DNA from: Phormidesmis priestleyi
GTDB lineage: Bacteria > Cyanobacteriota > Cyanobacteriia > Phormidesmidales > Phormidesmidaceae
DNA length: 20,474 bases
Assembly: GCA_003242115.1 (NCBI GenBank)
Contig: QBMP01000039.1
Location: forward strand, 1-20,474
Direction of reading: 5' to 3'
Part shown: positions 1 to 20,474 of the stretch, piece by piece
Layout of the letters: every line of letters starts with the position of its first letter
Position numbering within the stretch: position 1 is the stretch's first letter
Program-made: the position numbers and the translations under genes
The notes under the pieces: generated by a model
Database searches by the model: none
What the model saw: only the letters and a program-made list of their open reading frames with translations
Told to the model about the DNA's origin: nothing

Positions 1-212
1 GTATCCGCTCTAAATTTAGCATCGCTGGCCTCAGATATAGTTGCTTTATACTACCGTCTATTTCCCAACAGGTCTACTGTTCGCCACGTTTCAAGTAGGC
101 GCGTTCTTGCATTGGGCGCATACCAAAGGCGTTTGGTGTAGTGGAGGTGCCGTTCTGGGTGTAGGTGACGGAAACGGCGGGAACAGCGATGGGTTTGCGC
201 ATAAGTATTTTT
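1..212. other. Left edge, no supported gene
   Basis: I see no convincing gene here. An open frame on the plus strand runs from 41 into the PIN toxin gene, but its translation looks like random sequence and it overlaps that gene antisense. No hairpin, palindrome or telomere-like end is visible at base 1, so the window edge is not obviously a natural replicon end. Confidence 0.5.
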
Positions 213-3890: not shown

Positions 3891-3978
3891 CATTCTTCAA
3901 TCAAACTGTTATCGTTCTTCAATCAAACTGTCATCGTTCTTCAATCAAACTGTCATCGTTCTTCAATCAAACTGTCAT
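3891..3978. repeat. Four tandem copies of a 22-bp repeat
   Basis: Four head-to-tail 22-bp units (3891-3912, 3913-3934, 3935-3956, 3957-3978) share the pattern CGTTCTTCAA then TCAAACTGTCAT. The last three are identical and the first differs at two positions. Each ends in the CTGTCAT half that is also the core of the 11-bp array that follows without a break, so 22 bp is two units of the same period. Confidence 0.93.
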
Positions 3979-4198
3979 AAAAGTGACATAAAACTGTCAT
4001 AAAAGTGCAATAAAACTGTCATAAAAGTGACATACGACTGTCATAAAACTGTCATAAAACTGTCATAAAAGTGACATACGACTGTCACAAAACTGTCATA
4101 AAAGTGCAATAAAACTGTCATAAAAGTGACATAAAAGTGACATAAAAGTGACATAAAAGTGACATACGACTGTCATAAAAGTGACATACGACTGTCAT
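3979..4198. repeat. Twenty tandem 11-bp units (phased iteron-like array)
   Basis: Exactly 220 bp can be cut into twenty 11-bp units. The variants are AAAACTGTCAT, AAAAGTGACAT, ACGACTGTCAT and AAAAGTGCAAT, plus ACGACTGTCAC once. The core TGTCA alternates with its reverse complement TGACA, so a binding site would appear on alternating strands of one helix face, and A4 tracts recur about once per helical turn. With the preceding 22-bp repeats the array spans 308 bp, or 28 units. Such arrays are typical of plasmid origins (iterons) or centromeres. Which one applies here, and which protein binds, is inference. Confidence 0.93.
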
Positions 4199-4245
4199 AT
4201 TTCCTAGAGAAAGCGCGAGCAGACAAAACTACCCATTACCCTCTC

Positions 4246-4374: not shown

Positions 4375-4596
4375 CTATGGGTATAGGGCAATGGCGTTGG
4401 CAACTCGCCACTGATATTCTCCATAAGCTTCTTGATTCCATTTGACAACTTCTCTAGGCTCAGGCTTACCCACGTTCTGACGTGAGCCGTGCCTTAGCGC
4501 ATCAGTGTGGGCTAACAGCTCACACTGATACTCAGCCATCCACTCGTTAACCTTGTCCGGTTTAACGCCCTGCATTGCCCTAGCAGATACTGCGGC
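4375..4596 (-). pseudogene. Telomere resolvase C-terminal fragment (decayed paralogue)
   Basis: The minus-strand reading aligns with the end of the 550-residue resolvase encoded at 17835-19487. VKPDKVNEWM matches VKPDKVKEWM (498-507), RQNVGKPEPREVVKW matches QQNKGKADIRTVIKW (526-540), and EAYGEYQW matches EAAYGAYEW (542-550). Upstream of the first ATG the match continues in frame for a few codons (SARAMQG against SLRQMTK) and then meets a stop at 4597-4599. Only about 70 codons remain, with nothing of the catalytic core. It runs about 12 residues past the end of the intact protein. The divergence suggests a paralogue, not a recent copy. A short expressed DNA-binding peptide cannot be excluded, but relic is more likely. 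Confidence 0.8.
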
Positions 4597-4654
4597 TCAG
4601 ACCTCTCAGGATGGCGATAGAAAGGCACTAGACAGATGAAGATGGTTAGAACAC

Positions 4655-4686
4655 AAAAAAAAGCTCCTCATGATGGCGAGAAGCTT
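4655..4686 (-). terminator. Terminator-like hairpin, minus strand
   Basis: On the minus strand AAGCTTCTC, an 8-nt loop and GAGGAGCTT form a 9-bp stem with one G-U pair, followed by a run of T residues (A-run at 4655-4662 on the plus strand). No intact gene ends just upstream, so it probably belonged to a gene now decayed, perhaps the one that left the fragment at 4944-5012. Confidence 0.6.
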
Positions 4687-4829
4687 ACTGTGGCCGGTGC
4701 TGGAACTTAGAGAGCTACGCCCTAGCCTTTCGATTAAGTATTCAGCCAATGAGATGGAACGATTCTGTGACAATTTCGCACCAAGTTCATCACAGTCTAA
4801 GCCGCTTTCCTTGAAGCAATTTTGCTCCC

Positions 4830-4918
4830 TCCAGAAAACAGCAGCAAGATATGGCAAAGTGGGCCTACTGGCCGTATTTTTCAAAAGTGATCTTGACTAT
4901 CGTGCCAACGCTGCCGCC
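4830..4918. repeat. Dispersed repeat R, copy 2
   Basis: This copy contains the AGCAAGATATGGCAAAGTG core with a 3-bp insertion before it (AGCAGCAAG). It continues into the second half shared with copies 3 and 4: GGCCGTATTTTTCAAAAGTG, then a segment ending CGTGCCAA. It lies just left of the second resolvase fragment (4944-5012). Confidence 0.82.
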
Positions 4919-4943
4919 GATATTTGCAATATGTCCGACTGCT

Positions 4944-5012
4944 CTACTTGATAACCTCACGCAAGTCAGGCTTACCTAGATTCTGGCGTGTCCCAATCCC
5001 AAGCTCCTTAGC
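4944..5012 (-). pseudogene. Second telomere resolvase C-terminal fragment
   Basis: A minus-strand reading of about 22 codons, AKELGIGTRQNLGKPDLREV then IK and a stop, matches the other fragment (GSRQNVGKPEPREVVK) and the intact resolvase (SYQQNKGKADIRTVIK, 524-539). It is bounded by a stop at 5013-5015 and by TAG at 4944-4946, so it is far too short to be a gene. With the fragment at 4375-4596 it shows that this region once held at least two resolvase-type genes or C-terminal modules in the same orientation. Confidence 0.72.
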
Positions 5013-5046
5013 TCAGCTTGCTGTCGTGTTATTTTTCCGTGCCAAA

Positions 5047-5090
5047 ACGTCTAAAAAACGTCTAAAAAATGCCTAAAAAATGCCTAAAAA
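5047..5090. repeat. Four tandem 11-bp units with A5 tracts
   Basis: ACGTCTAAAAA occurs twice and ATGCCTAAAAA twice, head to tail, with a degenerate fifth unit (ACGTTCTTTAG) after them. The A5 tracts are exactly 11 bp apart, the geometry that gives static DNA bending. The unit differs from the arrays at 3979-4198 and 5263-5394 but has the same period. Confidence 0.9.
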
Positions 5091-5129
5091 ACGTTCTTTA
5101 GACAGTATCCAAGTCGTCTGATTTACACT

Positions 5130-5233
5130 CTTCAGAAAATAGCAAGATATGGCAAAGTGACCCCTGGTCGTATTTTTCAAAAGTGGTCTCGACCGTCGTG
5201 CCAAAATTGAGCACAGAAAACCGCCTTGTTGGA
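5130..5233. repeat. Dispersed repeat R, copy 3 (full length)
   Basis: This is about 104 bp and differs from copy 4 (5430-5533) at only about ten positions. It contains the AGCAAGATATGGCAAAGTG core, then CCCCTGGTCGTATTT, AAGTGGTCTCG and CAAAATTGAGCACAGAAAAC, ending CGCCTTGTTGGA. The 11-bp array at 5263-5394 lies between copies 3 and 4, exactly 300 bp apart start to start, as in a duplicated module. Confidence 0.9.
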
Positions 5234-5262
5234 ACTTGGTCTCTCGCAAAGCAGAAAGCATA

Positions 5263-5394
5263 ATTATCCGTATAGTATCCGTATATTATCCGTGTAGTAT
5301 CCGTATATTATCTGTATATTATCCGTATATTATCCGTGTAGTATCCGTATATTATCTGTATATTATCCGTGTAGTATCCGGATAATTATCCACC
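5263..5394. repeat. Twelve tandem 11-bp units (TATCCG array)
   Basis: The segment cuts into 11-bp units ATTATCCGTAT, AGTATCCGTAT, ATTATCCGTGT and ATTATCTGTAT, with degenerate last units AGTATCCGGAT and AATTATCCACC. There are eleven clear units and a twelfth partial one. It is AT-rich with a C/G step each turn and could be an unwinding element or a protein array near the replication gene (3' end at 5652). Confidence 0.93.
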
Positions 5395-5429
5395 CACCAT
5401 CAGGCTTTTGACAGTTCTTTTATAGCCCC

Positions 5430-5533
5430 TCCAGAAAACAGCAAGATATGGCAAAGTGACCCCCTGGTCGTATTTGTCAGAAGTGGTCTCGGCCATCGTC
5501 CCAAAATTGAGCACAGAAAACCGCCTTGTTGGA
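5430..5533. repeat. Dispersed repeat R, copy 4 (full length)
   Basis: This near-identical partner of copy 3 lies about 120 bp beyond the stop of the replication gene. Like copies 1 and 2 it begins with CCAGAAAA, followed by CAGCAAGATATGG. No transposase, terminal inverted repeat or target duplication is visible around any copy. Confidence 0.9.
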
Positions 5534-5651: not shown

Positions 5652-8600
5652 TTAAGAATTTAGTGGTATCGGTGGGGGTGGCGGTGCCTTCGCCCCTATC
5701 AAAGCCATCTGATTTAGATTTTCTGGCGGATCATCGGTACCCATTTTGAGGGCGTCACCCAGTTTAGTAAGCCAATCTTCATACAAAACTGCATGACGCC
5801 CCTTGATGGCCTTGATCGCTTTTTCGACTTCACCCCCCGCCTTTTCGGAAACCCAAGCCAAAGCCTTCGCGATAACCTGGCTCTTTGCAGCCGCGTCTAT
5901 GCTTGCGCGGGTTTGCGCCCTGATGACCCTCAGCTCAGCTCTAAACCGCTTCAGCCCGTCCTCACCGTCTTGTTTAAGCCGGTTGAGTGAAGAGATCGCA
6001 TCGACCTCTATTTCGAGCCGATAGACGTTTAGCCGGTCGCCAGTGCCCTCTCGCTTGTCCTTCGTGGGTCTGTAGCCCATGACTTCAAGTGCCTTGTTAA
6101 ATAGCGCTGCGGGAGCCATCTGCTCAGAGAACTGAGCGCCCCTCACTAAGCCTGATTTTTTCGTATTGGCGGCGATCTGCTGCCGGTGTGCGACTAAATA
6201 AAGCCCTGCGGCGATGACTTGCGGATCTTGATTTGTCCAGGTTTCAGTTTTGCCGTCGATAACCTCAGCCACGCCAGGGCAACGCGCCATGATGCCGACT
6301 AGCTCAATATCGCGGGCGGCGGCTGGTAGCTCTGGCAAGTTCCAAAACAGATCGCTATCGGCGTCTGGCTTGCCCGCCAGGAACTTTAGCGCCTTCATGT
6401 GCTCAATTTGCTGCCAGCAATCCGGGTCACTGATGGCAATTTTCAGCAGTTGAGCGCGCACGATTGAGCGAACACCGGGATTATTGGCGCTCTTATCGGC
6501 TGACCATGCGGTGAAAAATTCGCTGTTCTGTTGCGCTAAGTAGTCTTTGCCTAGCAGTTTTTCGAGCTGAGCTTTAGCCGCCCGCGCCGCCTGGAACGGA
6601 TTATCAATCTCATCTAGCTCGCCTTCAGCCGCTCGTGTCTGCGTTTTTTTGAGCGTTCGGCCTTGCTGCTCAATCAGGCCGATGCGAACTTTATCGCAGA
6701 AGAGATGTAGCTGATGGGCCTGATCAGCTTCGTCTTTGCTCAGCGCTGGTGATGTCGATACCTCCCAGCCGTAGCGCTCCCAATCCTCATGCAGCAGCTC
6801 TTTTTTGAAGATAATTTCAAATGCTTTACTGGCCATGAAGTGAGGCAGGTTAGGTCGCATCCCTGCGAACTTTTCAGCTTCCTGCTGCATTGGCTTTAGG
6901 GCTTTTTCTGCGCCCAATGCTTTGGCTAATGCCGCCGCCGCGCCCATTGGGGCATTGGCTTCGTTTTCTAGTTCATCTGCCCAATACTGCCAGTCCAAGG
7001 CAGCAGGGTAGGCTTCGAGCGTGGGCGCTCCCTGCTGGCTGAAGTAGATGTGACGCTCGGTGATTGCGCCGTCACGACCAATTGCTAATCTAATTCGTTC
7101 GCCGCGCTGGCTGATGCTTTGCGCCCCTTCGTTCGGCGTGGCGTACTCGAACTGAATATCAAAGTGCTTGCCCTCGATGCTGACGCCGCTGTTAATGACG
7201 GGTGTAAAAATAAACCAATCTGGCTGAGCGACCGATAGGAAGGCATCGGGATCAGCTAAGAATTGGGAGCGTTGATTTTGCAATGTGGCCGCGCCATCAA
7301 TCACTAAGCCGCTTTTGTTCGGGAATATCGCCCGCAGTACCCGGTCAATCATGCGGCCTTTGCCACGACTGCCGACTGGAATCGCTACCCGCTGGCCGCT
7401 GTGCAAGGCGTTAATGATTTGCTGTAGCCAGTGATAGAAGTTGTCATACTCAATCACTTTCATCTGAGTAGCGGGTCTAGAGCGTCGCTGTAGCCGTAAC
7501 TCATCGGGCGTAAACCCGCCGATGGTCTGCACGGCTGTGAGTGTGCGCCCGCTCATTGCCGCCGTCGCGATCCCAATGGTGGGAGTCGTGGCTAACAGCT
7601 TTCTGAAGGCGGCTAAACTTTGCGGCCCTGCGTTGCCTAGTTCTGCGCTTTCGATGCGGTGTAAGACTTCGTTGCATTCGTCAATTTGAAGTAAATCAAA
7701 GCTCTGCCCCTTGAATTTGTAAGCCGATTCAGGGCAGGTGACGACAATCGCCGCGCTGTAGCATTTGGGATCTAAGTGAGTCGCGGCGATCGCTTCACCC
7801 GCCCGCTCATTGATCCGACCTTTGAATTCTTTGGCTAAGCCTCTGGTAGGTACGAAAATCAGCACCCGCCCGCCGTCTTTTGCTACTGCCAGCGCTGAGG
7901 GAATCAGCGCGTTATTCGATTTGCCGGTGCCCTGTGAGCAGTCGTAGGCCAGCAGCGATCTCCCGTCAGATGCTGGCGGCATCTCGCTAGCAAAGCCGCT
8001 GATGAGTGCGCCATGAGTTTCATATTTGAGATGCCGTTTGAGTGGCTGATAAAATAGCTCACGCGCCTGCTGCTGGTAGTTGTCCTCATCGGTATTGATG
8101 GCCGCTTTTATGCCGAGCAGTTTTGTGATTTGTGCGTATGACTGACCATCGCGCTTAAGCTTCTGTTCTGCCAGCCACTCAGCTTTAGTCTGCTTGCTTG
8201 AAACAGCCTGAGCCAAGGGCACTTTAGCTGTCTCAACCTCAATCAGCGCGGCTGGTTTTGGCGCAATCGCCACGAATTCAGCCCAGGTGATCAGCCGCGC
8301 CGTCTCAAATTGCTCATGGCTGATTTCATCAATATCGCCATCGGCCTTCGTCCGCTGCTCATACCAAAGCACTTTAAGTTCACGGCTCATGCCTATCAGC
8401 TCGGCATTGAGCGCCGCATACGAGCGCATGACGTGAGCGTTTTGAATTGCGCCAGCATCAGGGCAAAGCACTAAAGTTTTTGGCAACAGCGCACTTATAC
8501 ATTCGTGCAACTGTTCGGGGCTGCTGGCAAAATTTCCGCCACTTGCCCCGATGATATTTATGCGATGCTTTTCAGCCGCAACTATCGGCTTTAGAAGCCC

Positions 8601-9293
8601 TTCAGCAAAGTAGAGTGTTGAGCTATTGCCGCCGCGCACAACCGTTAAAGGCATCTCGCCATTTTGCAGGTTTGCAGGCGCTACGCCCGCCACTGAGAGC
8701 CACGGGTATTTGGGCTTGTCGCCGGTTCGATTGCGAATCTGAAAGCCTGTGATATTGCCGTCTAAATCAAACGCGGGTACTAAATAACCAGCCGTGCGAG
8801 TCAGCAGCTTACGACCGCCAAAGCCAGCGCCCGGAGCCTTGGGATTGATTGCGAGATCTAATGTCTGCCCTGGTTCGATTGAGCGGAATGATTCAATCGT
8901 TTCAGCAGACAGGCCGCGCCGCGTCAAATCAGCGCGATCCTCATCGTGCAAGGATAGTTGAGCCAAAAGCTGAGTATGCGCCGCGTGACGCTCAGCAGGG
9001 CTTAAGCCAGCCTGATAGATGGCTTTCTCTTCAGCTTCCCGCTGTGCCCGTCGCTGCTGCCTTTCCTCGTAGTCGATTTGGGGCTGAGCTTTATCAGGGG
9101 TAAAGGTTGCCCAGCCTTTAGAACCTAGCTTGATGCACTTCCAACCGTCTATCAAGTCGAATAGTTTAGCGTCGCCGTTGGTCATGCAAAGCACAAAACT
9201 TTGCCCACCGTCGTCCTTGGTTCGGCACTTGCCTTTAACGTTGCCGCATACGGGGCAATCATTAGATTCAGTAGTGGGAGTAAACTCTTTCAT
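5652..9293 (-). CDS. CyRepA-like plasmid replication initiator (primase/helicase)
   Basis: From ATG 9293 this is a 1213-residue protein that resembles the CyRepA family of cyanobacterial plasmid replication proteins. In order it shows an N-terminal zinc finger (CPVCG...C, then C in FVLCM), as in primase-like proteins; a TOPRIM-like DUF3854 segment with FAEGLLKP and LVLCPDAGA; and a helicase core. In the core are Walker A (CSQGTGKSNNA), VLIFVPTRGLAKEF, a DE box (LLQIDECNEV), an SF2-like motif V (FTPVINSGVSIEG) and motif VI (ISQRGERIR). The expected role is to open the origin and prime replication. A TTG 66 bp upstream could extend it, but ATG 9293 is preferred: it is preceded by GGGGGTG and overlaps the upstream gene's stop as ATGA, implying coupling. 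The C-terminal 450 residues have no motif I recognise. As with other plasmids of this type, antisense control of the 5' region is possible but not shown. Confidence 0.87.
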   Translation of the reverse strand: MKEFTPTTESNDCPVCGNVKGKCRTKDDGGQSFVLCMTNGDAKLFDLIDGWKCIKLGSKGWATFTPDKAQPQIDYEERQQRRAQREAEEKAIYQAGLSPAERHAAHTQLLAQLSLHDEDRADLTRRGLSAETIESFRSIEPGQTLDLAINPKAPGAGFGGRKLLTRTAGYLVPAFDLDGNITGFQIRNRTGDKPKYPWLSVAGVAPANLQNGEMPLTVVRGGNSSTLYFAEGLLKPIVAAEKHRINIIGASGGNFASSPEQLHECISALLPKTLVLCPDAGAIQNAHVMRSYAALNAELIGMSRELKVLWYEQRTKADGDIDEISHEQFETARLITWAEFVAIAPKPAALIEVETAKVPLAQAVSSKQTKAEWLAEQKLKRDGQSYAQITKLLGIKAAINTDEDNYQQQARELFYQPLKRHLKYETHGALISGFASEMPPASDGRSLLAYDCSQGTGKSNNALIPSALAVAKDGGRVLIFVPTRGLAKEFKGRINERAGEAIAATHLDPKCYSAAIVVTCPESAYKFKGQSFDLLQIDECNEVLHRIESAELGNAGPQSLAAFRKLLATTPTIGIATAAMSGRTLTAVQTIGGFTPDELRLQRRSRPATQMKVIEYDNFYHWLQQIINALHSGQRVAIPVGSRGKGRMIDRVLRAIFPNKSGLVIDGAATLQNQRSQFLADPDAFLSVAQPDWFIFTPVINSGVSIEGKHFDIQFEYATPNEGAQSISQRGERIRLAIGRDGAITERHIYFSQQGAPTLEAYPAALDWQYWADELENEANAPMGAAAALAKALGAEKALKPMQQEAEKFAGMRPNLPHFMASKAFEIIFKKELLHEDWERYGWEVSTSPALSKDEADQAHQLHLFCDKVRIGLIEQQGRTLKKTQTRAAEGELDEIDNPFQAARAAKAQLEKLLGKDYLAQQNSEFFTAWSADKSANNPGVRSIVRAQLLKIAISDPDCWQQIEHMKALKFLAGKPDADSDLFWNLPELPAAARDIELVGIMARCPGVAEVIDGKTETWTNQDPQVIAAGLYLVAHRQQIAANTKKSGLVRGAQFSEQMAPAALFNKALEVMGYRPTKDKREGTGDRLNVYRLEIEVDAISSLNRLKQDGEDGLKRFRAELRVIRAQTRASIDAAAKSQVIAKALAWVSEKAGGEVEKAIKAIKGRHAVLYEDWLTKLGDALKMGTDDPPENLNQMALIGAKAPPPPPIPLNS

Positions 9294-9565
9294 GCCGACA
9301 CCCCCGCGATCAATTCGACGAGCTGCTGAGATGAAAGACGTTGCTGTACTTGGTAGCAACGATTACAGCAGGTTGCCGCCGCGTGGCCTGACTCGCTTTC
9401 AAACTTGAATAGGGATTGCGAGGTCGAGCCGCACTTTTCACACGGATCGCACTTTTTAATGTTTGCCCACAGCAAAGGCAGTGATCTAAGGATGACAACG
9501 GATCGAGGTCTGGCCCCTGCCTGCTGACGCTGGCTATTTTTCCTGATTCTGGGTAGTATTGTCAC
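9290..9565 (-). CDS. Small zinc-finger ORF upstream of the replication gene
   Basis: This ORF of up to 91 codons ends in ATGA with the replication gene's ATG, so translation is probably coupled. It shows CDPCEKCG and later CCNRC, two paired-Cys knuckles of a small zinc ribbon. The GTG start at 9565 gives an Arg-rich N-terminus that looks non-native. In the neighbouring frame, from TTG 9498, the sequence starts SSLDHCLCCGQTLK, a natural-looking zinc-finger beginning, and reaches this frame only through a -1 shift at an A5 run near 9465-9470. So the gene may be frameshifted, use recoding, or start later. I recall that the CyRepA-type gene of Synechocystis pSYSA also follows a small ORF, which fits a leader or copy-control role. 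That role is inference. Confidence 0.55.
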   Translation of the reverse strand: MTILPRIRKNSQRQQAGARPRSVVILRSLPLLWANIKKCDPCEKCGSTSQSLFKFESESGHAAATCCNRCYQVQQRLSSQQLVELIAGVSA

Positions 9566-12186: not shown

Positions 12187-12252
12187 CCCCGTGGTACATG
12201 GCTTGCGTATGCCCATTGCAGGCAGAAAAGTGAACGTGCAGTAAATGCACAT

Positions 12253-12315
12253 GACCGGACATCTGACCGGACAACGACCGGACAACGACCGGACAATGAC
12301 CGCCCTAATGACCGC
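12253..12315. repeat. GACCGGACA iterons upstream of HTH gene
   Basis: GACCGGACA occurs exactly at 12253, 12265, 12276 and 12287, followed by two degenerate copies (GACCGCCCT at 12298, GACCGC at 12310). Steps are 12, 11, 11, 11 and 12 bp, so the sites sit on one face of the helix. Just before them GTGCA-GTAAA-TGCAC (12236-12250) is a perfect short inverted repeat. The array lies directly in front of the HTH gene at 12338, which suggests autoregulation or a second promoter inside the operon. Confidence 0.82.
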
Positions 12316-12337
12316 AATAAAACAACCACCTAAAACT

Positions 12338-12874
12338 ATGGAAAACCTACAGCCTCAAAGCATTACAGACTATCCACATACCCGCCGGTCACTCCAACTA
12401 GAGACCGGCACATCTGAAAAGACCGTTCGCCGTTGGATAAAAAAAGCTAACGTGACCGGCTGCCCCATCGGCAATATTGAGCGATTCAGTAACGAGCAAA
12501 GAGATGAAATTATCTCGCATCAGGCCAAGCCTAAACAGGCTGATGAAGTCGTAGAAGTTGAGCTGATGCCTGAGCCGGGCGCTATCACGCTCAGGGACAC
12601 ATCAGAGCAGGCTACCGGCCTAATGCGATTCGACATTCAGGCAATCGAATTAAACGCGCCTACAGCCGACATCGCCGCCTTGCAGGTACAGACAGCGCAG
12701 TTGGAACAGACCGCTCAACAGGGCGCTAACGCGATCGCCGCCTACTTTGGCGCTCGATTCGATGTGGGACTAGCTGAAATCGCCGCCAAACAAGACAACC
12801 TGCTTAAAGGCATTGAGGCCCAGGCGCTCAATGGTGCGGCTAGGTCGATAGCTCAGCCGGGAAAGCCGCGCTAG
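12338..12874 (+). CDS. Helix-turn-helix DNA-binding protein
   Basis: From ATG 12338 this is a 178-residue protein. Its N-terminus (about 16-39: RRSLQLETGTSEKTVRRWIK) fits a helix-turn-helix with GTSEKTVRRWIKKA as turn and recognition helix, followed by a short FSNEQRDEII element as in MerR-like or phage-type regulators. The second half (about 90-178) is Ala/Gln-rich and coiled-coil-like, suggesting oligomerisation. An in-frame ATG at 12245 would add 31 residues, but those codons lie inside the GACCGGACA repeats and give a repetitive, unnatural peptide (TGHLTGQRPDNDRT), so the later start is preferred. It probably binds the repeats in front of its own gene. Confidence 0.68.
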   Translation: MENLQPQSITDYPHTRRSLQLETGTSEKTVRRWIKKANVTGCPIGNIERFSNEQRDEIISHQAKPKQADEVVEVELMPEPGAITLRDTSEQATGLMRFDIQAIELNAPTADIAALQVQTAQLEQTAQQGANAIAAYFGARFDVGLAEIAAKQDNLLKGIEAQALNGAARSIAQPGKPR

Positions 12875-13473: not shown

Positions 13474-14200
13474 AGAACAGCAAGCCGCCGCCATTTTGGG
13501 CACTTCAAACACCCTATTAGATGAACTGAAAGGCAAAGCCACCGCCGAGCCCACCCGTAGCCGTCCAAAATCTCCCAAGAAAGGAGCGGCAAAAACGACA
13601 AAGACAGCCGCCAAAAAAACGCCCACTAGCACCGATACACCCGTCCAAGCTGAGCTGGTTCATGCGCCGGTAAGTGGTAGCGGTATCAATGGGGTTATTC
13701 GTGGCGACATCGGCCAAACTGACCCGCAAACGATGGCTCAAGCCCTGGTAGCGATTCAGCAGCAGCAAAACACAGTGCTAGTTTCTCAGGCGAATAAGAA
13801 GCTCGATAAAGAGGTCGCGGTAGATCAGGGGCTTGGCCTATCCGTACAGCTTCAGCAGGAAAAGAACGCCACGGTCAATGAGTCGATTTCCACCCAAGCC
13901 ATGAAGACCCGCCAGCAGGGCGCTAAGACTTCACTCGAAGGTGTCCGGCTGCAAGGTTTGAATATCGACTTAGAAGGTGAGGCCGCGCTATTGCCTCATC
14001 GTCAAGAAGGATGGTCTATCAAATCTGAAGGGATGGCCATTGACAATGAAGGCGCTCGGACTCTACTACAGCCGCGCCGTGAGCATTGGGCCGCTAAGTT
14101 GCAACTGGCTCATGTTGGCTTGCAACAGCTCAGCATCCAAATTCAGCAAGCGCAAAGCGAACTATACGCCCCAGTGGAAATCAATCAGTTAAACGACTAA
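13460..14200 (+). CDS. Hypothetical protein with basic N-terminus and 25-residue tandem repeat
   Basis: This 246-residue protein has a Lys/Ala/Pro/Thr-rich stretch at 25-60 (PTRSRPKSPKKGAAKTTKTA) like histone-H1 tails, suggesting nucleic-acid binding. A Gln-rich helical centre follows. Residues 166-190 and 191-215 are a direct tandem repeat of 25 residues with the pattern G(L/M)xID(x)EG..xLL..R.E.W...(K). A further helical Gln-rich tail ends the protein. It is preceded by GAGG 8-9 bp before the ATG and lies 80 bp before the FtsK-like gene. I do not recognise the family. Association with DNA or with the ATPase is inference from the basic tail and position. Confidence 0.68.
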   Translation: MPQTKEQQAAAILGTSNTLLDELKGKATAEPTRSRPKSPKKGAAKTTKTAAKKTPTSTDTPVQAELVHAPVSGSGINGVIRGDIGQTDPQTMAQALVAIQQQQNTVLVSQANKKLDKEVAVDQGLGLSVQLQQEKNATVNESISTQAMKTRQQGAKTSLEGVRLQGLNIDLEGEAALLPHRQEGWSIKSEGMAIDNEGARTLLQPRREHWAAKLQLAHVGLQQLSIQIQQAQSELYAPVEINQLND

Positions 14201-14280: not shown

Positions 14281-16389
14281 ATGAAGCTTAACCCTCACAT
14301 CGTTTTCTCTAGCCTTGGCTTAGCCTTCAGCCTGCCTTTATTGTTTATCCCTAACGTTCCTGCCATCTTTGCCGGTGGCATGGGTACAGCCGGTGCCGGT
14401 GGCTATCTAGCCGCGAATGTCGCCTTAGCCGCCGATACCCGCAAACGTCAAAAGGAAATTTCTGATAAAACCCGCCAGATCGATACCAGAGAACACGAAC
14501 TATCAAGCCGGTTCAAATCCGCAACGGCTGATCTCAATCGTCAACTTAATCAGGCAATTGCTGAGCGCGATCGCACTGCCTTAAGTGCCAAAGCTCACGT
14601 AACTGCCATCGAAGCCCAGCGCCGTCATTTGCTCGATGAAGCCAAAGCCGCTATGGGTGATGAGCTGCGCCGTGAGTTTGAGGCAGAATATCAGCGCCGG
14701 TTTGAGCAGTCCACCGCAGACTTTAGCCGCCGGGGTGATGAGTTCTATCACGCTGAAGGTGAGCTATGTGATCAGATTGAAGTCCTGCAAGCGGTACTGG
14801 CTCAGAATGAAACCTATCTGCGTGAGGAGTTCGGGAAAGAAGTCAACGCCCGCGCCGATAACTTCGCCGGTCGCTATCAAACCTTGCAAGGTCAACTAGA
14901 AAAGTACGGTCAAGTAATCCAGACGGCCAGCTCGGAAGCAATAGAGGATTTGAGGCAAAAAGACCTGATGATTGCCAAGCTCCAAGGACAGGTAGAGCTA
15001 CTGAACGCGCCTAGAAAATATCGGGGCAACTCGCAAGATGACAAGACGGCTAACAAAATCCTAGAGTTCTTCCTAAAGCGCTCGGTAGCGGTAGAGGCCG
15101 AAGACTGGGAACGTAAACTTAACCAGCTCATCGTCTGGCTATATCCCAAAGATGCCGCCCTGCCACAGCTTCAATTACTCATGGATGAATTGCAGCAAAG
15201 CTTGGGGCTATACGCCCGCCCGTCTGTCGAGATTGACCGTAGCTGCTTCAAAATCGTCTGTGATACCGATGCCAAAATCTCAATCAAAGCCACCATCACA
15301 GAGCCGCCTTTAAGCCGACTTGAGCGGGCAATCAGTGAGGCTATTCACGTTCGTATCGCCGCGCCGTCTGGTAGCGGTAAGTCGGTGCTACTTGGCAACC
15401 TAGTCAACTATCTGACTGAGAACTACCTAAGCAGCTATCAGCTTTACGATCCCAAAGTTACGGCTCGTAAGGTATGGGGAAATCTCACCCCTACCTACTA
15501 TTCAACCGACTGCCTACCGGCTTTATTCAGCTTGGCTAAAGAGTGCCTAAAGCGAATCGACTTGTGCAAAGTAGCCGCCGAAAACGATAAGCCAGCGCCA
15601 GACTTTAACCCTGAGTTTCACATTATTGATGAGCTTGAGTTTATGTACGGCTTGGTGGATATCATCGGCGATAGTGCCTACACATCTAAGAAGTTCGCAA
15701 CCAACGTAAAGGCCGGTTTGAAGGTAGGCCGTGAGCATAAAATTAAGCTGCTTTTCGTCACTCAATCGGCACTGTGTTCTGATGTGAATTTGAAGAAAAA
15801 CGACTTCTTTAATACCACTAGCCTATTCCTTGGTCAAACGATTATGGAAGCGTTAGACAGTGATTTGATGAGTGCAGTGAGTACTCAGAAGAAAGCCATC
15901 TTACGAGCTGAATACAAAGCCCGTTTAGCCCGTGGCGATAAGTACACAATCCTGGTATATGAGCCTGAAAAACCTACCGAGGCTTGGCTATGTGCGGCTC
16001 CCTCACCAGGGCATTATGCAGCCCTCGCCACCGCTAGCACTGCCAATACCGCCCAAAATGAAAACACTGATTTAGGGGGAGTAGACGCCCGCACGTCCGA
16101 AGGTGCTAAATCGGGTGAATCCCTCGCAGGTCAAGGGGTGCCACAGAAAAGCTCAGGCGAACTCAACACGCCCAAAAATGCCGACAGCACGCCCGCAGCA
16201 CTCGATGGGAACTCGTTGGAAGTTCTACTAAGACAGGGTACGCATTGCCCTGACTGTGGCCACCATTCAGCTAGCTACAGCCAGCGCCAACCTAACGGCT
16301 TAGGCAACGTTCGGCTCAAGTGCAAAAGTGACGAATGCAGCCCAAATAAACGCAAGCCAAAAACGTTTAGTTGGCAGGTAAGTAAGTAA
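14281..16389 (+). CDS. Membrane-anchored FtsK/HerA-like DNA translocase ATPase
   Basis: This 702-residue protein has an N-terminal hydrophobic region (residues 7-50, one or two membrane helices, Gly-rich turn), a long coiled coil (about 55-240), a P-loop ATPase and a C-terminal zinc ribbon. Walker A is IAAPSGSGKSVLLGN (359-373), Walker B is FHIIDE (446-451), and a later strand LLFVTQSA (490-497) matches the sensor TQ found in FtsK-type motors. C656, C659, C681 and C686 form the zinc ribbon. The HVRIAAPSGSGKSV context is like FtsK/SpoIIIE proteins. The likely role is moving double-stranded DNA at the membrane, in plasmid segregation, telomere-junction clearance or conjugative transfer. No relaxase or type IV secretion gene is visible, which weakens classical conjugation. 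It ends the eight-gene operon, before a shared terminator. Confidence 0.8.
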   Translation: MKLNPHIVFSSLGLAFSLPLLFIPNVPAIFAGGMGTAGAGGYLAANVALAADTRKRQKEISDKTRQIDTREHELSSRFKSATADLNRQLNQAIAERDRTALSAKAHVTAIEAQRRHLLDEAKAAMGDELRREFEAEYQRRFEQSTADFSRRGDEFYHAEGELCDQIEVLQAVLAQNETYLREEFGKEVNARADNFAGRYQTLQGQLEKYGQVIQTASSEAIEDLRQKDLMIAKLQGQVELLNAPRKYRGNSQDDKTANKILEFFLKRSVAVEAEDWERKLNQLIVWLYPKDAALPQLQLLMDELQQSLGLYARPSVEIDRSCFKIVCDTDAKISIKATITEPPLSRLERAISEAIHVRIAAPSGSGKSVLLGNLVNYLTENYLSSYQLYDPKVTARKVWGNLTPTYYSTDCLPALFSLAKECLKRIDLCKVAAENDKPAPDFNPEFHIIDELEFMYGLVDIIGDSAYTSKKFATNVKAGLKVGREHKIKLLFVTQSALCSDVNLKKNDFFNTTSLFLGQTIMEALDSDLMSAVSTQKKAILRAEYKARLARGDKYTILVYEPEKPTEAWLCAAPSPGHYAALATASTANTAQNENTDLGGVDARTSEGAKSGESLAGQGVPQKSSGELNTPKNADSTPAALDGNSLEVLLRQGTHCPDCGHHSASYSQRQPNGLGNVRLKCKSDECSPNKRKPKTFSWQVSK

Positions 16390-16455: not shown

Positions 16456-16505
16456 CTAAATACTTAGATAACTAAATAATTGATTATCTAAATAGCTAAA
16501 TATTG
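16456..16505. promoter_or_regulatory. AT-rich partition-type box cluster, left of par operon
   Basis: The sequence contains CTAAATA, ACTAAATAATTGATTATC (16471-16488), TCTAAATAG and CTAAATA repeats. CTAAATAATTGATTAT (16472-16487) is identical to the centre of the 46-bp palindrome at 17728-17773. The cluster overlaps the end of the ribbon-helix-helix gene. Its presence on both sides of the partition operon supports a role as centromere-like sites for the encoded DNA-binding protein. Confidence 0.6.
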
Positions 16506-16798
16506 GGCGCATTTTTCTGAAGCCAAAGCCGTATTCCTTCCGCCGCAATCGCACTCATTTCTTCCCCGGTGATGGCGCTACCTATCTTTAGCTTTTGATG
16601 CAGTTCTCTAGGCAGATAGACGCCGATTTGAACATAATCAGGGTTTTTGGATTTGGGTACTTGCTTGGTAGCTTGGGGCTTGCTTTTTGCTTTAGCTTCC
16701 GTTATTTCCTTGACCTCATTAACGGCTGTAGTTGGTGCTTTCTTGTCGCTGCTACTTAACCCGCTCATTAGTCCGCTGAAACGATTTTCACTACTCAT
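16496..16798 (-). CDS. Ribbon-helix-helix DNA-binding protein (partition partner)
   Basis: In this 100-residue protein the first half is a flexible Lys/Ser/Ala-rich tail. The C-terminal half is a ribbon-helix-helix domain: strand YVQIGVYLP (about 55-63), helix RELHQKLKIGSAITG (64-78) and helix EEMSAIAAEGIRLWLQK (79-95). Architecturally it is like ParG-type proteins, which bind the centromere and stimulate ParA with their N-terminal tail. It is the last gene of the parA operon, overlapping the upstream gene by ATGA, and clusters of a repeated AT-rich box flank the operon. It probably binds those boxes, both segregating the plasmid and repressing parA and possibly the divergent resolvase gene. 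Confidence 0.78.
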   Translation of the reverse strand: MSSENRFSGLMSGLSSSDKKAPTTAVNEVKEITEAKAKSKPQATKQVPKSKNPDYVQIGVYLPRELHQKLKIGSAITGEEMSAIAAEGIRLWLQKNAPNI

Positions 16799-17037
16799 GC
16801 TACGAATGCCCCTTGCTTATTGAGCGGGACAATTATCAGCGGAGCTTTATTGTGTACATCATCAGACTCGCAAGTTCGAGTCAAGATCCTCGCTACATCG
16901 TTTAGCAGTTCGACAGGATCACTTTGGATACAACTCGACCCACATTTGGGGCAACTAATAATTGGAATACTTTGGGGCAGTGCTTCAGCAAATCTGAAGC
17001 CGCAACTGACTGAAGTAGTTATTTTGAACTTAGCCAT
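16795..17037 (-). CDS. Small Cys-cluster protein in the par operon
   Basis: This 80-residue protein begins MAKFKITTSVSCGFRFAEALPQ and carries a CPKCGSSC knuckle (about 29-36). With C12 (in SVSCGF) this could bind a metal or be a half zinc ribbon. The overlaps with parA (8 bp) and with the ribbon-helix-helix gene (ATGA) make it a fixed part of the three-gene operon. I know of no standard third gene of this kind in ParA/RHH systems, so its role is unknown. It may bridge or modulate the ParA-centromere complex. Confidence 0.65.
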   Translation of the reverse strand: MAKFKITTSVSCGFRFAEALPQSIPIISCPKCGSSCIQSDPVELLNDVARILTRTCESDDVHNKAPLIIVPLNKQGAFVA

Positions 17038-17623
17038 TTTTCAAAATTTCCTCACCTACTTTTTGATAGCAATTCCAGGCAATTCCAGCCATGCGATCAC
17101 CTGTAACTTTATTAACCGACACACCCTGTTCAGCCGCTTTTTTGAAAGCGTCAAGCTGCCTGATATCAGTCGAAAATACGGGTAAGTCTGCTGACTCTAA
17201 AGCTGCTCTAGCTTCAGCCCCTCGTTTACTCGGCTTAGCTGGAACGATAGTGAGCAGCACTCTAAATATTTGCTTATCTAAATAATCAACCATCTGAAGC
17301 ATGGCACCCATAGCCAAAGCATCCGGGCTAGTAGGCACTATCAGCAGGTCACAGCCGCCCGCTAGCGTCGCCAGTTCTTCAACGCTGGGCCTTGCTGGGG
17401 TATCTATAACGATATGTTCAGCATTGCGCGAAAACTTCACCGCTTGCCCTTCATCACAAACTTGAAAATCAAAGCCGCCGGTACCACTCCATTGCAAAGC
17501 CGAACGGTTTAGATCGCCATCGACTAAAAGCGTAGGTGCATCGGTTTGTAAAAACTCTGCCAGATGTATTGCGGTGGTTGTCTTCCCAACGCCCCCCTTA
17601 AAACTTGCCACGGTGATAATCAT
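17030..17623 (-). CDS. parA: ParA-family partition ATPase
   Basis: This 197-residue protein has the deviant Walker A of the ParA/MinD family (SFKGGVGKTTTAIH, residues 7-20, with the signature lysine K9), a Walker A' strand (LLVDGDLNRSAL, 33-44) and Walker B (IVIDTPA, about 71-77). It is short and has no N-terminal helix-turn-helix, as in type Ib ParA proteins, which pair with small ribbon-helix-helix partners; such a partner is encoded two genes downstream. It moves plasmid copies by forming ATP-dependent gradients on the nucleoid. A copy of the AT-rich box (TTATCTAAATAATCAA) lies inside its coding region at about 17273-17288. Confidence 0.92.
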   Translation of the reverse strand: MIITVASFKGGVGKTTTAIHLAEFLQTDAPTLLVDGDLNRSALQWSGTGGFDFQVCDEGQAVKFSRNAEHIVIDTPARPSVEELATLAGGCDLLIVPTSPDALAMGAMLQMVDYLDKQIFRVLLTIVPAKPSKRGAEARAALESADLPVFSTDIRQLDAFKKAAEQGVSVNKVTGDRMAGIAWNCYQKVGEEILKNG

Positions 17624-17653
17624 TGCCCTTTCTCAATGTTTCTAGGATTCTAC

Positions 17654-17701
17654 AGCTATCTAAATAATTCAATACTTGGTTATTGAGTTATTTAGATAGC
17701 T
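17654..17701. promoter_or_regulatory. Long inverted repeat in the parA-resolvase intergenic region
   Basis: AGCTATCTAAATAATTCAAT-A (17654-17674) and TATTGAGTTATTTAGATAGC-T (17681-17701) are 21-bp arms with one mismatch and a 6-bp gap (CTTGGT). Both arms carry the same TATCTAAATAA box as the palindrome at 17728-17773. It starts 30 bp upstream of the parA start, placing it over the likely parA promoter, so it is a candidate operator and centromere site. Confidence 0.8.
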
Positions 17702-17727
17702 AATTGTCTAAAACAATCAGCTATCTA

Positions 17728-17773
17728 AATAATTGGATATCTAAATAATTGATTATTTAGATATCCAATTATT
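17728..17773. promoter_or_regulatory. 46-bp near-perfect palindrome; candidate resolvase target or parS
   Basis: Left arm AATAATTGGATATCTAAATA-AT (17728-17749) and right arm ATTATTTAGATATCCAATTA-TT (17752-17773) are exact reverse complements, 22 bp each, separated only by TG at the centre. It ends 61 bp before the telomere-resolvase start codon and overlaps a probable -35 hexamer of that gene. Hairpin telomere targets of known resolvases are palindromes of this length beside or near the resolvase gene. However, its half-box is repeated nearby and flanks the par operon, so parS/operator is an equal or better reading. The asymmetric centre also counts against a resolution site. Confidence 0.75.
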
Positions 17774-17800
17774 GGCACCAGGGGACAAGTTATATTATTA
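17772..17800 (+). promoter_or_regulatory. Likely promoter of the resolvase gene
   Basis: TTGGCA (17772-17777) fits a -35 box, and the TATATTATTATAGG tract (17791-17804) supplies -10 hexamers at spacings of 15-19 bp (TTATTA at 17 bp). The -35 touches the right end of the 46-bp palindrome, so a protein bound there would block transcription of the resolvase gene. Confidence 0.5.
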
Positions 17801-17834
17801 TAGGAACAAGTTAAGTGCTTGAGAGATTCCCACG

Positions 17835-19487
17835 ATGCAAGTTATCGAGCCGATTACGATTGACACTTTTAAGCCATACGCCAAGCTCGGTAAAAGCAAT
17901 GGAAAAGTTCAAGACCGTATCTGCGGTCTGCTTTTCCGCCTGATCCAGACCACTAGCCCTGCTAAGGTAAAACAGCTTTGTCTAGACGAAGTGGCTTGGC
18001 TTGAGTCTGAATACAGCAATTCCAATACGCGAACTAGCTATATTACGGCTCATCGAAAAGCGCTGAAAGCTTACTTTGATGAGTTCCCGCCGCCCGCTAA
18101 TTTGCTGAGTGAGTATAAGGGCACTCGCCAACATTTAGCGCTCTGTCATCTATTTGCTGCTGCTGAGGACTACGCCCAAAAGTCAGCGGGTACTAAAGAG
18201 AAGACTGCAAAGCAGCGCGACAACCTAATTGGCTTTGATGCTGCCGCCGCGATCGCCATCACCGAAGAATTAATGCAATCTAACGATTGGCGTAAGCTAG
18301 CAGCCGGTTTGATTATGGCTAGTCAGTCCCGGCCTTCAGATATGCTCAAGTCTGGAGAGTTCAAAGCCGTCAGCAAATACAAGCTTTTATTCACAAGCCG
18401 CGCTAAAAAGAGAGGCAAGGCTGTTACAGGTGAAATATTCTGCTTGGTAGAGGCTGTGACATTTATTGATGCTCTTAGCTGGTTGCAGCGTGATGCCGAT
18501 GTGATGGAGCTGCAAAACTGGACACTTGCAGAAATCGACAGCGGTAAAAACAAAACTTTGAATCGCACCGTTAGACAAGTCTATGGTGATGTGATTCCGG
18601 TGCCCTTTGGTGAAGTTGAGCTAAGCTGCAAAAACTTACGCGCCGCCGGGGTGAACGCCGCCTATTGGCTTCATGGTCGCGACAATCAGAGCATAGGGCG
18701 CTTTGCTGAGCTTCAGCTACTGCACGACAATTCCGGTGCGGCTGCGAACTATGAGGACTACTACGCCGCCGATGCTAGCGGTAAGCGCCTGCAACAGGTC
18801 GGCATTTTAAAAGATGAGCCGCTAGGCACGAAGCCCCAAAGTGAGCAGCGTAGCTCTATCAGTGTTGACGCTCAACTCAGAGATATGATCGCCGATGCTG
18901 TGCAATGGGGTGAGGGGAGTCACGCCGATAGACTTGAGCGCATCATTGCAAGGGCGCATCAGGCTGATAAGTTAGAGCGACAGTTAGCCCGCGAGTGTGA
19001 AAAACGACAGCGGCTAGAGTTCGAGCTGAGACGGCTAAAAGCGGCTAACGCTGATAATTCCGATACGGAATATAAGCCGATTGAAGAACATGAATTTATC
19101 AGGTTAAAGAAGCCAGCAGCCGAGGTTAAGCCCGCCGCCACTGATGAGCCTACCGGCTTTGATTGGCGCAATGTTCCTAATGCTGAGCTAAAGGGGAATC
19201 GCCGCCGTGATGCCTATGCTGAAAAGCTGCGCCGGTCTGTAGAGGCTATTCAGGAATATAACGTAGGCCGTGAGCTGGTAGAGCAGTATGCAATCAATAG
19301 CTCATCGTTGCGACAGATGACTAAGGTTAAGCCCGATAAGGTCAAAGAATGGATGGATGAGCGCAATGCTGGGTTAGGTAGCTACAGCAACGCTCAAGGC
19401 CACAGCTATCAGCAGAATAAAGGCAAAGCCGACATTCGTACCGTCATCAAGTGGAGTGAGGCCGCTTACGGCGCTTATGAGTGGTAA
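17835..19487 (+). CDS. Telomere resolvase (protelomerase) family protein
   Basis: This 550-residue protein is in the size range of protelomerases (about 440-640). These enzymes cut a palindromic replicated telomere and reseal each end as a covalently closed hairpin. The catalytic pattern is complete: R166 (SQSRPSDMLKSG), K191 25 residues later (TSRAKKRGK), K266xxR269 (SCKNLRAAG), H297 (LLHDNSGAAA) and Y306, nine residues after the histidine. As I recall, TelK uses R275, K300, K380xxR383, H416 and Y425, so the 25- and 9-residue spacings and the K in place of the integrase HxxR histidine agree. Residues 365-405 are coiled coil. The tail (about 455-550) holds a helix-turn-helix-like YAINSSSLRQMTKVKPDKVKEWM. 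It is divergent from parA with a 46-bp palindrome between. Remote relation to ordinary tyrosine recombinases remains the alternative. Confidence 0.85.
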   Translation: MQVIEPITIDTFKPYAKLGKSNGKVQDRICGLLFRLIQTTSPAKVKQLCLDEVAWLESEYSNSNTRTSYITAHRKALKAYFDEFPPPANLLSEYKGTRQHLALCHLFAAAEDYAQKSAGTKEKTAKQRDNLIGFDAAAAIAITEELMQSNDWRKLAAGLIMASQSRPSDMLKSGEFKAVSKYKLLFTSRAKKRGKAVTGEIFCLVEAVTFIDALSWLQRDADVMELQNWTLAEIDSGKNKTLNRTVRQVYGDVIPVPFGEVELSCKNLRAAGVNAAYWLHGRDNQSIGRFAELQLLHDNSGAAANYEDYYAADASGKRLQQVGILKDEPLGTKPQSEQRSSISVDAQLRDMIADAVQWGEGSHADRLERIIARAHQADKLERQLARECEKRQRLEFELRRLKAANADNSDTEYKPIEEHEFIRLKKPAAEVKPAATDEPTGFDWRNVPNAELKGNRRRDAYAEKLRRSVEAIQEYNVGRELVEQYAINSSSLRQMTKVKPDKVKEWMDERNAGLGSYSNAQGHSYQQNKGKADIRTVIKWSEAAYGAYEW

Positions 19488-19501: not shown

Positions 19502-19671
19502 CTACGTAGCCTGATTGACTGACAAAACATGCATTAAAAATGCTGAACCCCTTTTATATCAGTACTTTCAGCTCAGTCATAGGCGTAATCGCCCGATTTA
19601 GCCTGAAATCCTTACAGAGAGGGGCTTTCAGAAGTTTTTGTCAAACTTTTGTCAGTCAATCAGCTACGTAG
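19502..19671. repeat. 170-bp inverted-repeat element after the resolvase gene
   Basis: CTACGTAGC then TGATTGACTGACAAAA (19502-19527) is repeated in inverted form as TTTTGTCAGTCAATCA then GCTACGTAG (19647-19671). The arms are perfect except for one extra C in the left arm. The 119-bp interior contains its own hairpins: GCATT-AAA-AATGC (19531-19543), GGCG-TAAT-CGCC, TTTCAG...CTGAAA, and CCCCT...AGGGG. Thus the whole unit folds as nested stems. It begins 15 bp after the resolvase stop. It could be a structured RNA or terminator, a MITE-like element, or a recombination site (the ends are the palindrome CTACGTAG). No target duplication is apparent. Confidence 0.72.
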
Positions 19672-20282: not shown

Positions 20283-20474
20283 CGTGCGCTGTGCTGGGTG
20301 CTTGCTGCTGTACCTGTTGAGATCGCACACTCAGCCAGTCTCAAAAACAGTGTTGCAGAACTTTAGTAGAGGTGAATATCTTAAACTGAAGTTATGCATT
20401 TGGCACTGGTTCCGTCAAGTGGGACAGGATAAAGTGTCTATATACATAGGATAGGAGATAATAGACAGCGAAAA

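Follow-up and report, generated by a model that had tools for sequence, protein, structure and literature searches.

The question raised by the DNA analysed here, a 20,474-bp stretch of Phormidesmis priestleyi that makes up the entire contig C332 (the window), is whether a gene near its right edge encodes a telomere resolvase, or protelomerase, and whether the plasmid carrying it is linear with closed hairpin ends. The gene is an intact open reading frame (ORF) at 17835..19487 on the + strand, which begins with ATG and encodes 550 amino acids (aa). Its product matched PF16684 (ResT-TelK_cat), the telomere resolvase family, over the complete profile (positions 1-181 of 181) at 67.8 bits and E 1.1e-18 against a cut-off of 27, and this was the sole Pfam family at E <=1. 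R166, K191, K266, R269, H297, and Y306 (RKKRHY) were all present, at the positions and spacings given in the initial annotation of this DNA, and lie opposite R255, K286, Y363, R366, H394, and Y405 of TelA in a HMMER alignment read by eye (TelA residues as named in passages of PMC3558466). A profile of 60 sequences, the window protein and 59 relatives, retrieved from all PDB sequences only TelA, TelK, and ResT entries at E <=0.01, and fold comparison placed the protein closer to these three than to other tyrosine recombinases. Its N-terminal helical part and catalytic domain are TelA-like over residues 11-320, while the C-terminal half consists of a long helix (~363-410), a low-confidence linker (411-439), and a helical part (~449-550). 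The profile search and structural comparison that the initial annotation had proposed thus bear out the identity it had claimed; with profile, fold, and catalytic residues in agreement, the assignment as a telomere resolvase predicted to form hairpins is secure, and the gene very probably serves to maintain a linear plasmid with hairpin ends in a cyanobacterium of Leptolyngbyaceae type.

One argument for this identity, that a KxxR motif marks protelomerases, had to be given up. Across the 60 aligned sequences, R166, K191, R269, and Y306 were invariant (60/60) and H297 was found in 59, while K266 was kept in 52 (H in five, T in three); in 17 aligned PF16684 proteins from plasmids the position held K, H, T, or S, or R in a single alignment that is doubtful, and TelA and ResT have Tyr there according to passages of PMC3558466. 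Since the position varies across the family, KxxR is a weak argument and no family signature, and the whole domain decides the assignment. The TelA equivalog model NF052462 gave 24.7 bits, well under the required 800, which makes the protein a relative and not an orthologue of TelA. A search of 5.8 billion proteins returned 135 relatives at E <=0.001, and all 120 of the 135 that were listed carried PF16684; relatives' loci with a named record came from Leptolyngbya foveolarum, Phormidesmis priestleyi, and a Leptolyngbyaceae metagenome-assembled genome. Matches occurred in 25 of 63 genomes of the same taxonomic family, the window's own included, and 19 of 27 matching plasmid records were cyanobacterial, with homologues annotated there as 'protelomerase family protein' or 'telomere resolvase'. 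A degenerate DNA scan found no relatives in viral contigs; in genome contigs it found none with the single sequence and eight loci with the alignment. The control genome of Synechococcus elongatus contained a PF16684 match above cut-off.

The form of the replicon was approached through the ends of its homologues. We compared the two ends of each of the 19 cyanobacterial plasmid records with a resolvase match and of three later ones, 22 PF16684-bearing records altogether, using 12-20 kb at each end of the larger plasmids; outside this comparison lay eight non-cyanobacterial records, and likewise five Leptolyngbya boryana records, NC_011738, and Xanthobacter. Inverted or mirrored ends were found in 14 of the 22, six of them labelled 'circular'. 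Inverted ends were identical over 1,491 bp in AP018305, 1,340 bp in NC_020051 (with 36-bp palindromic tips), 8,629 bp in AP018283, and 2,213 bp in AP018304 (100% each), and similar over 2,893 bp in AP018302 (99%), 5,110 bp in NZ_CP046707 (98%), 2.8 kb in NZ_CP026690 (98%), ~1.06 kb in NZ_CP026683 (98%), 0.7 kb in AP018215 (94%, with perfect palindromes of 98 and 146 bp at the two ends), 154 bp in NZ_CP026691 (92%), and 366 bp in NZ_AP014641 (81%); those of NC_014535 matched at 76-85%. NZ_CP040280 is an inverted dimer carrying two mirror-image copies of the resolvase gene, and NZ_CP063797 has mirror ends joined within its 'circular' record, while AP018284 showed a palindrome at one end only. 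By comparison, inverted ends were found in none of six CyRepA-type plasmids without PF16684, including NZ_LR882955, which is nevertheless labelled linear. These controls were eight records of <=45 kb chosen by size, some of that size being left out, with 60 of 77 listed; two of them, AP018304 and NZ_CP063797, proved to carry PF16684, both with inverted or mirror ends, and were moved to that group before counting. For pNPM8, pNPM9, and pNPM10 of Nostoc N6, all with PF16684 genes, closed hairpins were inferred by the authors from reads that turn back at the ends, as passages of PMC5987646 state. Among contigs of same-family genomes seen at both ends, G054:C4 (19,479 bp, 99.96%), G047:C3, G045:C7, and G016:C68 had inverted ends, and G003:C2, whose ends matched directly (93%) as well as inverted (96%), was assigned to neither class. 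The comparison of ends makes a linear hairpin form of the homologous replicons well supported.

Some of these records have peculiarities of their own. The six labelled circular with exact inverted ends, or with mirror ends at one centre, are AP018305, AP018302, AP018215, AP018304, NZ_CP063797, and NZ_CP026691. NZ_CP040280 (44 kb, with a linear label) joins two copies of a ~24-kb plasmid in inverted orientation, with tip motifs at 14180 and 38104, and is either a hairpin read-through or a replication dimer. Odd catalytic sets, reading RKRYHY and RKHREY (Glu at the His position), were seen in AP018304 (2240-3382) and NZ_CP063797 (24366-25865 and 30838-32340) despite their inverted or mirror ends; these are either misaligned, divergent, or accompanied by a resolvase acting in trans.

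The closest complete relative found was G016:C68, a contig of 37,573 bp with inverted ends of 1,074 bp at 99.3%. It shares five genes with the window, those for a 702-aa protein (E 1.3e-101), ParA (E 1.1e-99), a ribbon-helix-helix (RHH) protein (E 1e-11), a 209-aa protein (E 2.5e-10), and the resolvase (E 4.2e-63), and its resolvase gene is transcribed towards the near end. The gene points outward likewise in Fischerella p7, p4, and p6, NIES-22 p8, pNPM8, pNPM9, pNPM10, ATCC 53789, and C052_H, towards the mirror centre in Tolypothrix, and outward in the P. priestleyi contig C13, of which one end only is seen. In the window, the resolvase gene is the last ORF of at least 80 aa and is directed at the right edge.

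Tip sequences were shared within groups. Nostocales tips have AAATTAACRGAC in common, in agreement with passages of PMC5987646, and AP018215 and NZ_CP040280 contain them as read-through palindromes; the palindrome core TTGGAATTCCAA is common to the telomeres of Gloeocapsa pGLO7428.02 and G045:C7. In the window's own Leptolyngbya/Phormidesmis group, TATTTACAGTCA is a candidate hairpin tip: it forms the exact start of two contigs in two genomes, G053:C13, which carries resolvases, and G052:C288, after which the two diverge. These two tips were met while reading motif arrays and not by blind search. Exact 11-nt matches to TATTTACAGTCA numbered 21 in eight genomes; 19 were placed relative to contig ends, two in G016 (C14 and C43) being left out, and two of the 19 lay exactly at tips. 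The window itself held one match with two mismatches, which is no more than chance.

Just upstream of the resolvase start, at 17781..17813 on the + strand, two direct repeats, GGGGACAAGTTA and GGAACAAGTTA, stand 21 bp apart; no other ACAAGTTA site occurs in the window, and the two form a candidate operator of the resolvase gene. A GAACAAG pair occurs upstream of resolvase genes in relatives too. As a genome-wide telomere finder this pattern was unspecific, with counts no higher than those of a reversed-pattern control. The window's upstream TATAGGAACAAGTTAA matches TATCGGAACAAGTTAA, 30-45 nt from the tip of G053:C13, at 15 of 16 nt, and two of 376 control stretches scored as high as the window against that tip; against the tip of G052:C288, no match to the upstream region was found (p 0.61). 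In a broader motif test, the 160 bp preceding the start codon were scored against the 200-bp tip region (300 bp for C13), the null being drawn from 160-bp stretches elsewhere in that replicon, or in part of it (a 12-20 kb stretch only for pNPM8, ATCC 53789, G045:C7, G054:C4, and G047:C3). Seven of 17 replicons reached p <=0.008, namely Fischerella p7 and p4, NIES-22 p8, pNPM10, G016:C68, Tolypothrix, whose resolvase gene sits inside the end repeat, and G047:C3, which was tested with both tips. The motif AACNNGTT was picked after viewing the sequences, and its counts are descriptive. A motif common to the telomere region and the region upstream of the resolvase suggests self-regulation, the simplest reading being that the resolvase or a partner may bind both regions and so control the gene. 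More tentatively, and with somewhat less than an even chance of being right as a whole, hairpin linear plasmids may be common in cyanobacteria and largely mislabelled, and the resolvases may use their own telomere sequence as an operator at the promoter; the motif that adjoins the hairpin (AACNNGTT for Nostocales, GGAACAAGTTA for the window's group, and different ones elsewhere) would recur upstream of the gene, enzyme level would be set by telomere number, hence by copy number, and the Leptolyngbya/Phormidesmis tip would be TATTTACAGTCA. We found no report tying cyanobacterial resolvases to such promoter-telomere motif sharing in those portions of the open-licence PMC literature that were consulted.

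Several observations weigh against a linear, telomere-linked plasmid. The left edge of the window (1..76, no strand) is the end of a dispersed repeat that lies at, or <=10 bp from, the end of 10 contigs of the genome, window included (seven identical, three at 97%), and the right edge (20402..20474, no strand) is a second one, its 73 bp occurring on 14 other contigs of the genome at 94-100%. These edges are ruled out as telomeres; the assembly stopped there, so that the ends of the replicon are unseen and we infer its linear form, and no telomere was visible within the window. The linear hairpin replicon predicted in the initial annotation is in this sense well supported for the homologous replicons, and for the window's own it is probable but unobserved. 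An end signature was missing from seven of the 22 PF16684 records, four labelled circular (AP018300, AP017309, AP025026, and NZ_CP119970, whose inverted matches lie inside its ends and were counted as none) and three labelled linear (NC_014534, NZ_CP040279, and NZ_CP040290); one of the four labelled circular is Calothrix PCC 7716 p8 (16.4 kb), which has an intact RKKRHY. Only four of the eight same-family contigs had inverted ends (three had none, one was mixed), and ends of draft contigs need not be replicon ends. The window's replication protein found no match in G016:C68, and its own match to the CyRepA model NF042913, at 82.9 bits against a cut-off of 200, makes it CyRepA-like only. The resolvase gene points inward in NC_014535, NC_020051, NZ_AP014641, G045:C7, G047:C3, and G054:C4 and has a near-central position in AP018283, these seven being more distant relatives by score. 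With zero or one mismatch, TATTTACAGTCA is absent from the window, and no match to it stands at a contig tip in G000. Ten of the 17 replicons, finally, fell short of p 0.01 in the motif test: pNPM9 (0.41), Cy782206 (0.067), pNPM8 (0.118), Fischerella p6 (0.31), pLBY (0.93), G045:C7 (0.66), G054:C4 (0.92), C13, a fragment (0.039), and C052_H (0.12) and ATCC 53789 (0.39), the nulls of which included end-repeat sequence.

With the replicon's own ends unseen, the resolvase might be active and yet be encoded on a circular or chromosomal replicon, serving another linear replicon of the cell in trans, which we regard as unlikely. There are precedents: according to passages of PMC4379921, the Borrelia gene resT is carried by cp26, which is circular, and serves the linear chromosome and plasmids from there, and according to passages of PMC13293297, Agrobacterium C58 has telA on its circular chromosome. 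The source genome (439 contigs, 92.8% complete) has two further PF16684 genes above cut-off, on C91 and C387, giving three on three contigs, with resolvase fragments elsewhere, and the four circular-labelled records without end repeats fit this explanation as well. However, G016:C68, the closest complete relative found with the same parA-RHH-resolvase block, has terminal inverted repeats, the resolvase gene points outward in Nostocales and Leptolyngbya-type replicons with a visible nearby end, as in the window, and the window has its own replication and partition genes. That the protein is an ordinary tyrosine recombinase, an integrase or plasmid dimer resolvase, is very improbable, although it shares the tyrosine recombinase fold, and lambda Int, Xer, and Cre did appear in the fold lists, at lower places.

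In N15, the resolution site adjoins telN. A comparable arrangement here would turn on the imperfect palindromes at 17653..17775 (no strand) between parA and the resolvase gene, among them a 46-bp near-perfect palindrome at 17728-17773 with 22-nt perfect arms and a TG centre, 62 bp before the resolvase start codon; the contig would then be a circular or phage-like form that is cut in vivo. Imperfect palindromes of ~90-125 bp also directly precede the resolvase gene in Calothrix PCC 7716 p8, Nostoc C052_H, C057_I, and ATCC 53789. We consider this improbable, less credible than action in trans. The contig runs through the 46-bp palindrome with different sequence on either side, and the telomeres of relatives lie at record ends. 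The palindrome was also judged unlikely as a telomere. Repeats related to the palindrome occur at 17653-17710 and, beyond the par operon, at 16456-16506, and the parA-RHH operon of G016:C68 is likewise flanked by repeats on both sides (by eye). Because repeats flank the operon in both cases, they are taken as a partition site or operator; the palindromes are likely a par centromere or operator, a resolution site being possible but less likely.

A linear hairpin-ended form of the window's plasmid is thus our best inference. On the model of TelA, ResT, and TelK, the resolvase would bind palindromic junctions, cut through Tyr306, and allow each strand to be resealed on itself, yielding two linear monomers with closed hairpin ends. 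Judging from its relatives, it would be the last gene before one telomere and be transcribed towards it, and that telomere would lie to the right of the window, on the far side of the inserted repeat. The upstream GGAACAAGTTA repeats are probably bound by the resolvase or a telomere-binding partner, which would link expression to telomere dose.

A ParA-type partition ATPase of 197 aa is encoded at 17030..17623 (- strand), in keeping with the ParA operon named in the initial annotation; it matched Pfam CbiA at 47.6 bits, above cut-off, and NF041546 at 93.5 bits, under the cut-off of 180 for that model. A 100-aa RHH-like protein (16496..16798, - strand; PF23807 at 13.5 bits, below cut-off) is its presumed partition partner and has a homologue adjoining parA in G016:C68; a small ORF of 80 aa, known from the ORF list only, lies between the two genes (16795..17037, - strand). 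The 702-aa backbone protein (14281..16389, + strand) has an N-terminal hydrophobic stretch, a coiled coil, and a P-loop (by eye), with weaker matches in NIES-22 plasmid8 and Calothrix PCC 7716 p8, and the 209-aa backbone gene is at 12245..12874 (+ strand). The CyRepA-like initiator that had been annotated is present as a 1235-aa CyRepA1-like replication protein (5652..9359, - strand), with the below-cut-off score given above, and matches linear-type plasmids. It is adjoined by iteron-like 11-bp tandem repeats (5263..5391, no strand), one of four arrays of 11-bp (or 22-bp) repeats, the others lying at 3893-4199, 5044-5094, and 12253-12302, the last overlapping an ORF. A remnant of a second resolvase C-terminus (4408..4590, - strand) matches residues 490-550 at 48% identity (E 1.5e-11), and an apparent second piece lies near 4920-5000 (by eye). 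These remnants sit in an array of ~300-bp repeats (4821, 5122, and 5427), and the region 4408-5533 may be what remains of old telomere-proximal sequence. The inverted repeat 3' of the resolvase gene (19502-19671) was rejected as a telomere. Being imperfect (70%) and present in two related genomes, as similar copies in G053:C85 (83%) and G055:C14 (81%), this element with CTACGTAG ends looks like a small mobile repeat, similar to miniature inverted-repeat transposable elements. An MmeI-type restriction-modification protein with five MmeI Pfam domains (948-3692) and, nearby, a PIN-domain protein (213-623) were also found.

The system is of a known kind, cyanobacteria included. The initial annotation had held the hairpin form to be well known only from a few phages, Borrelia, and Agrobacterium, which is no longer tenable, as passages of PMC5987646 describe it for pNPM8, pNPM9, and pNPM10 of Nostoc sp. 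N6. The match between the CyRepA-like protein of pNPM10 and that of the window was the best one (E 2.3e-43), whereas the resolvases of these plasmids are remote from the window's, with 22-31% identity where they match, and the plasmids have AAATTAACRGAC as tip; neither 'telomer' nor 'resolvase' was found in the main text of that paper. TelA of Agrobacterium is only 21-22% identical and differs by its Tyr in place of K266 and by the extra long helix and C-terminal helical part of the window protein, while ResT differs by its Tyr at that position and by the location of its gene. TelK is 19% identical to the window protein over the aligned part and, together with TelN and the PY54 enzyme, belongs to phage-plasmids; among the window proteins scanned (seven with Pfam, seven with PHROGs, five with NCBIfam), no phage structural family was found at E <=0.001, with weak PHROG tail and terminase matches at E 0.015-0.17.

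Possible novelties are how widely linear plasmids are mislabelled, the candidate tip proposed for the window's group, and the telomere-like operator. A well-supported telomere resolvase is extended to a further cyanobacterial group, and the deposited 'circular' plasmids AP018305, AP018302, AP018215, AP018304, and NZ_CP063797 are probably linear with hairpin ends; NZ_CP026691 is reported to be linear in its paper and labelled circular in the collection. That expression of a telomere resolvase is controlled by the telomere sequence itself is a testable idea, and photosynthetic hosts that naturally harbour hairpin plasmids, like resolvases with new site specificities, would aid work on end replication and serve as linear-DNA tools.
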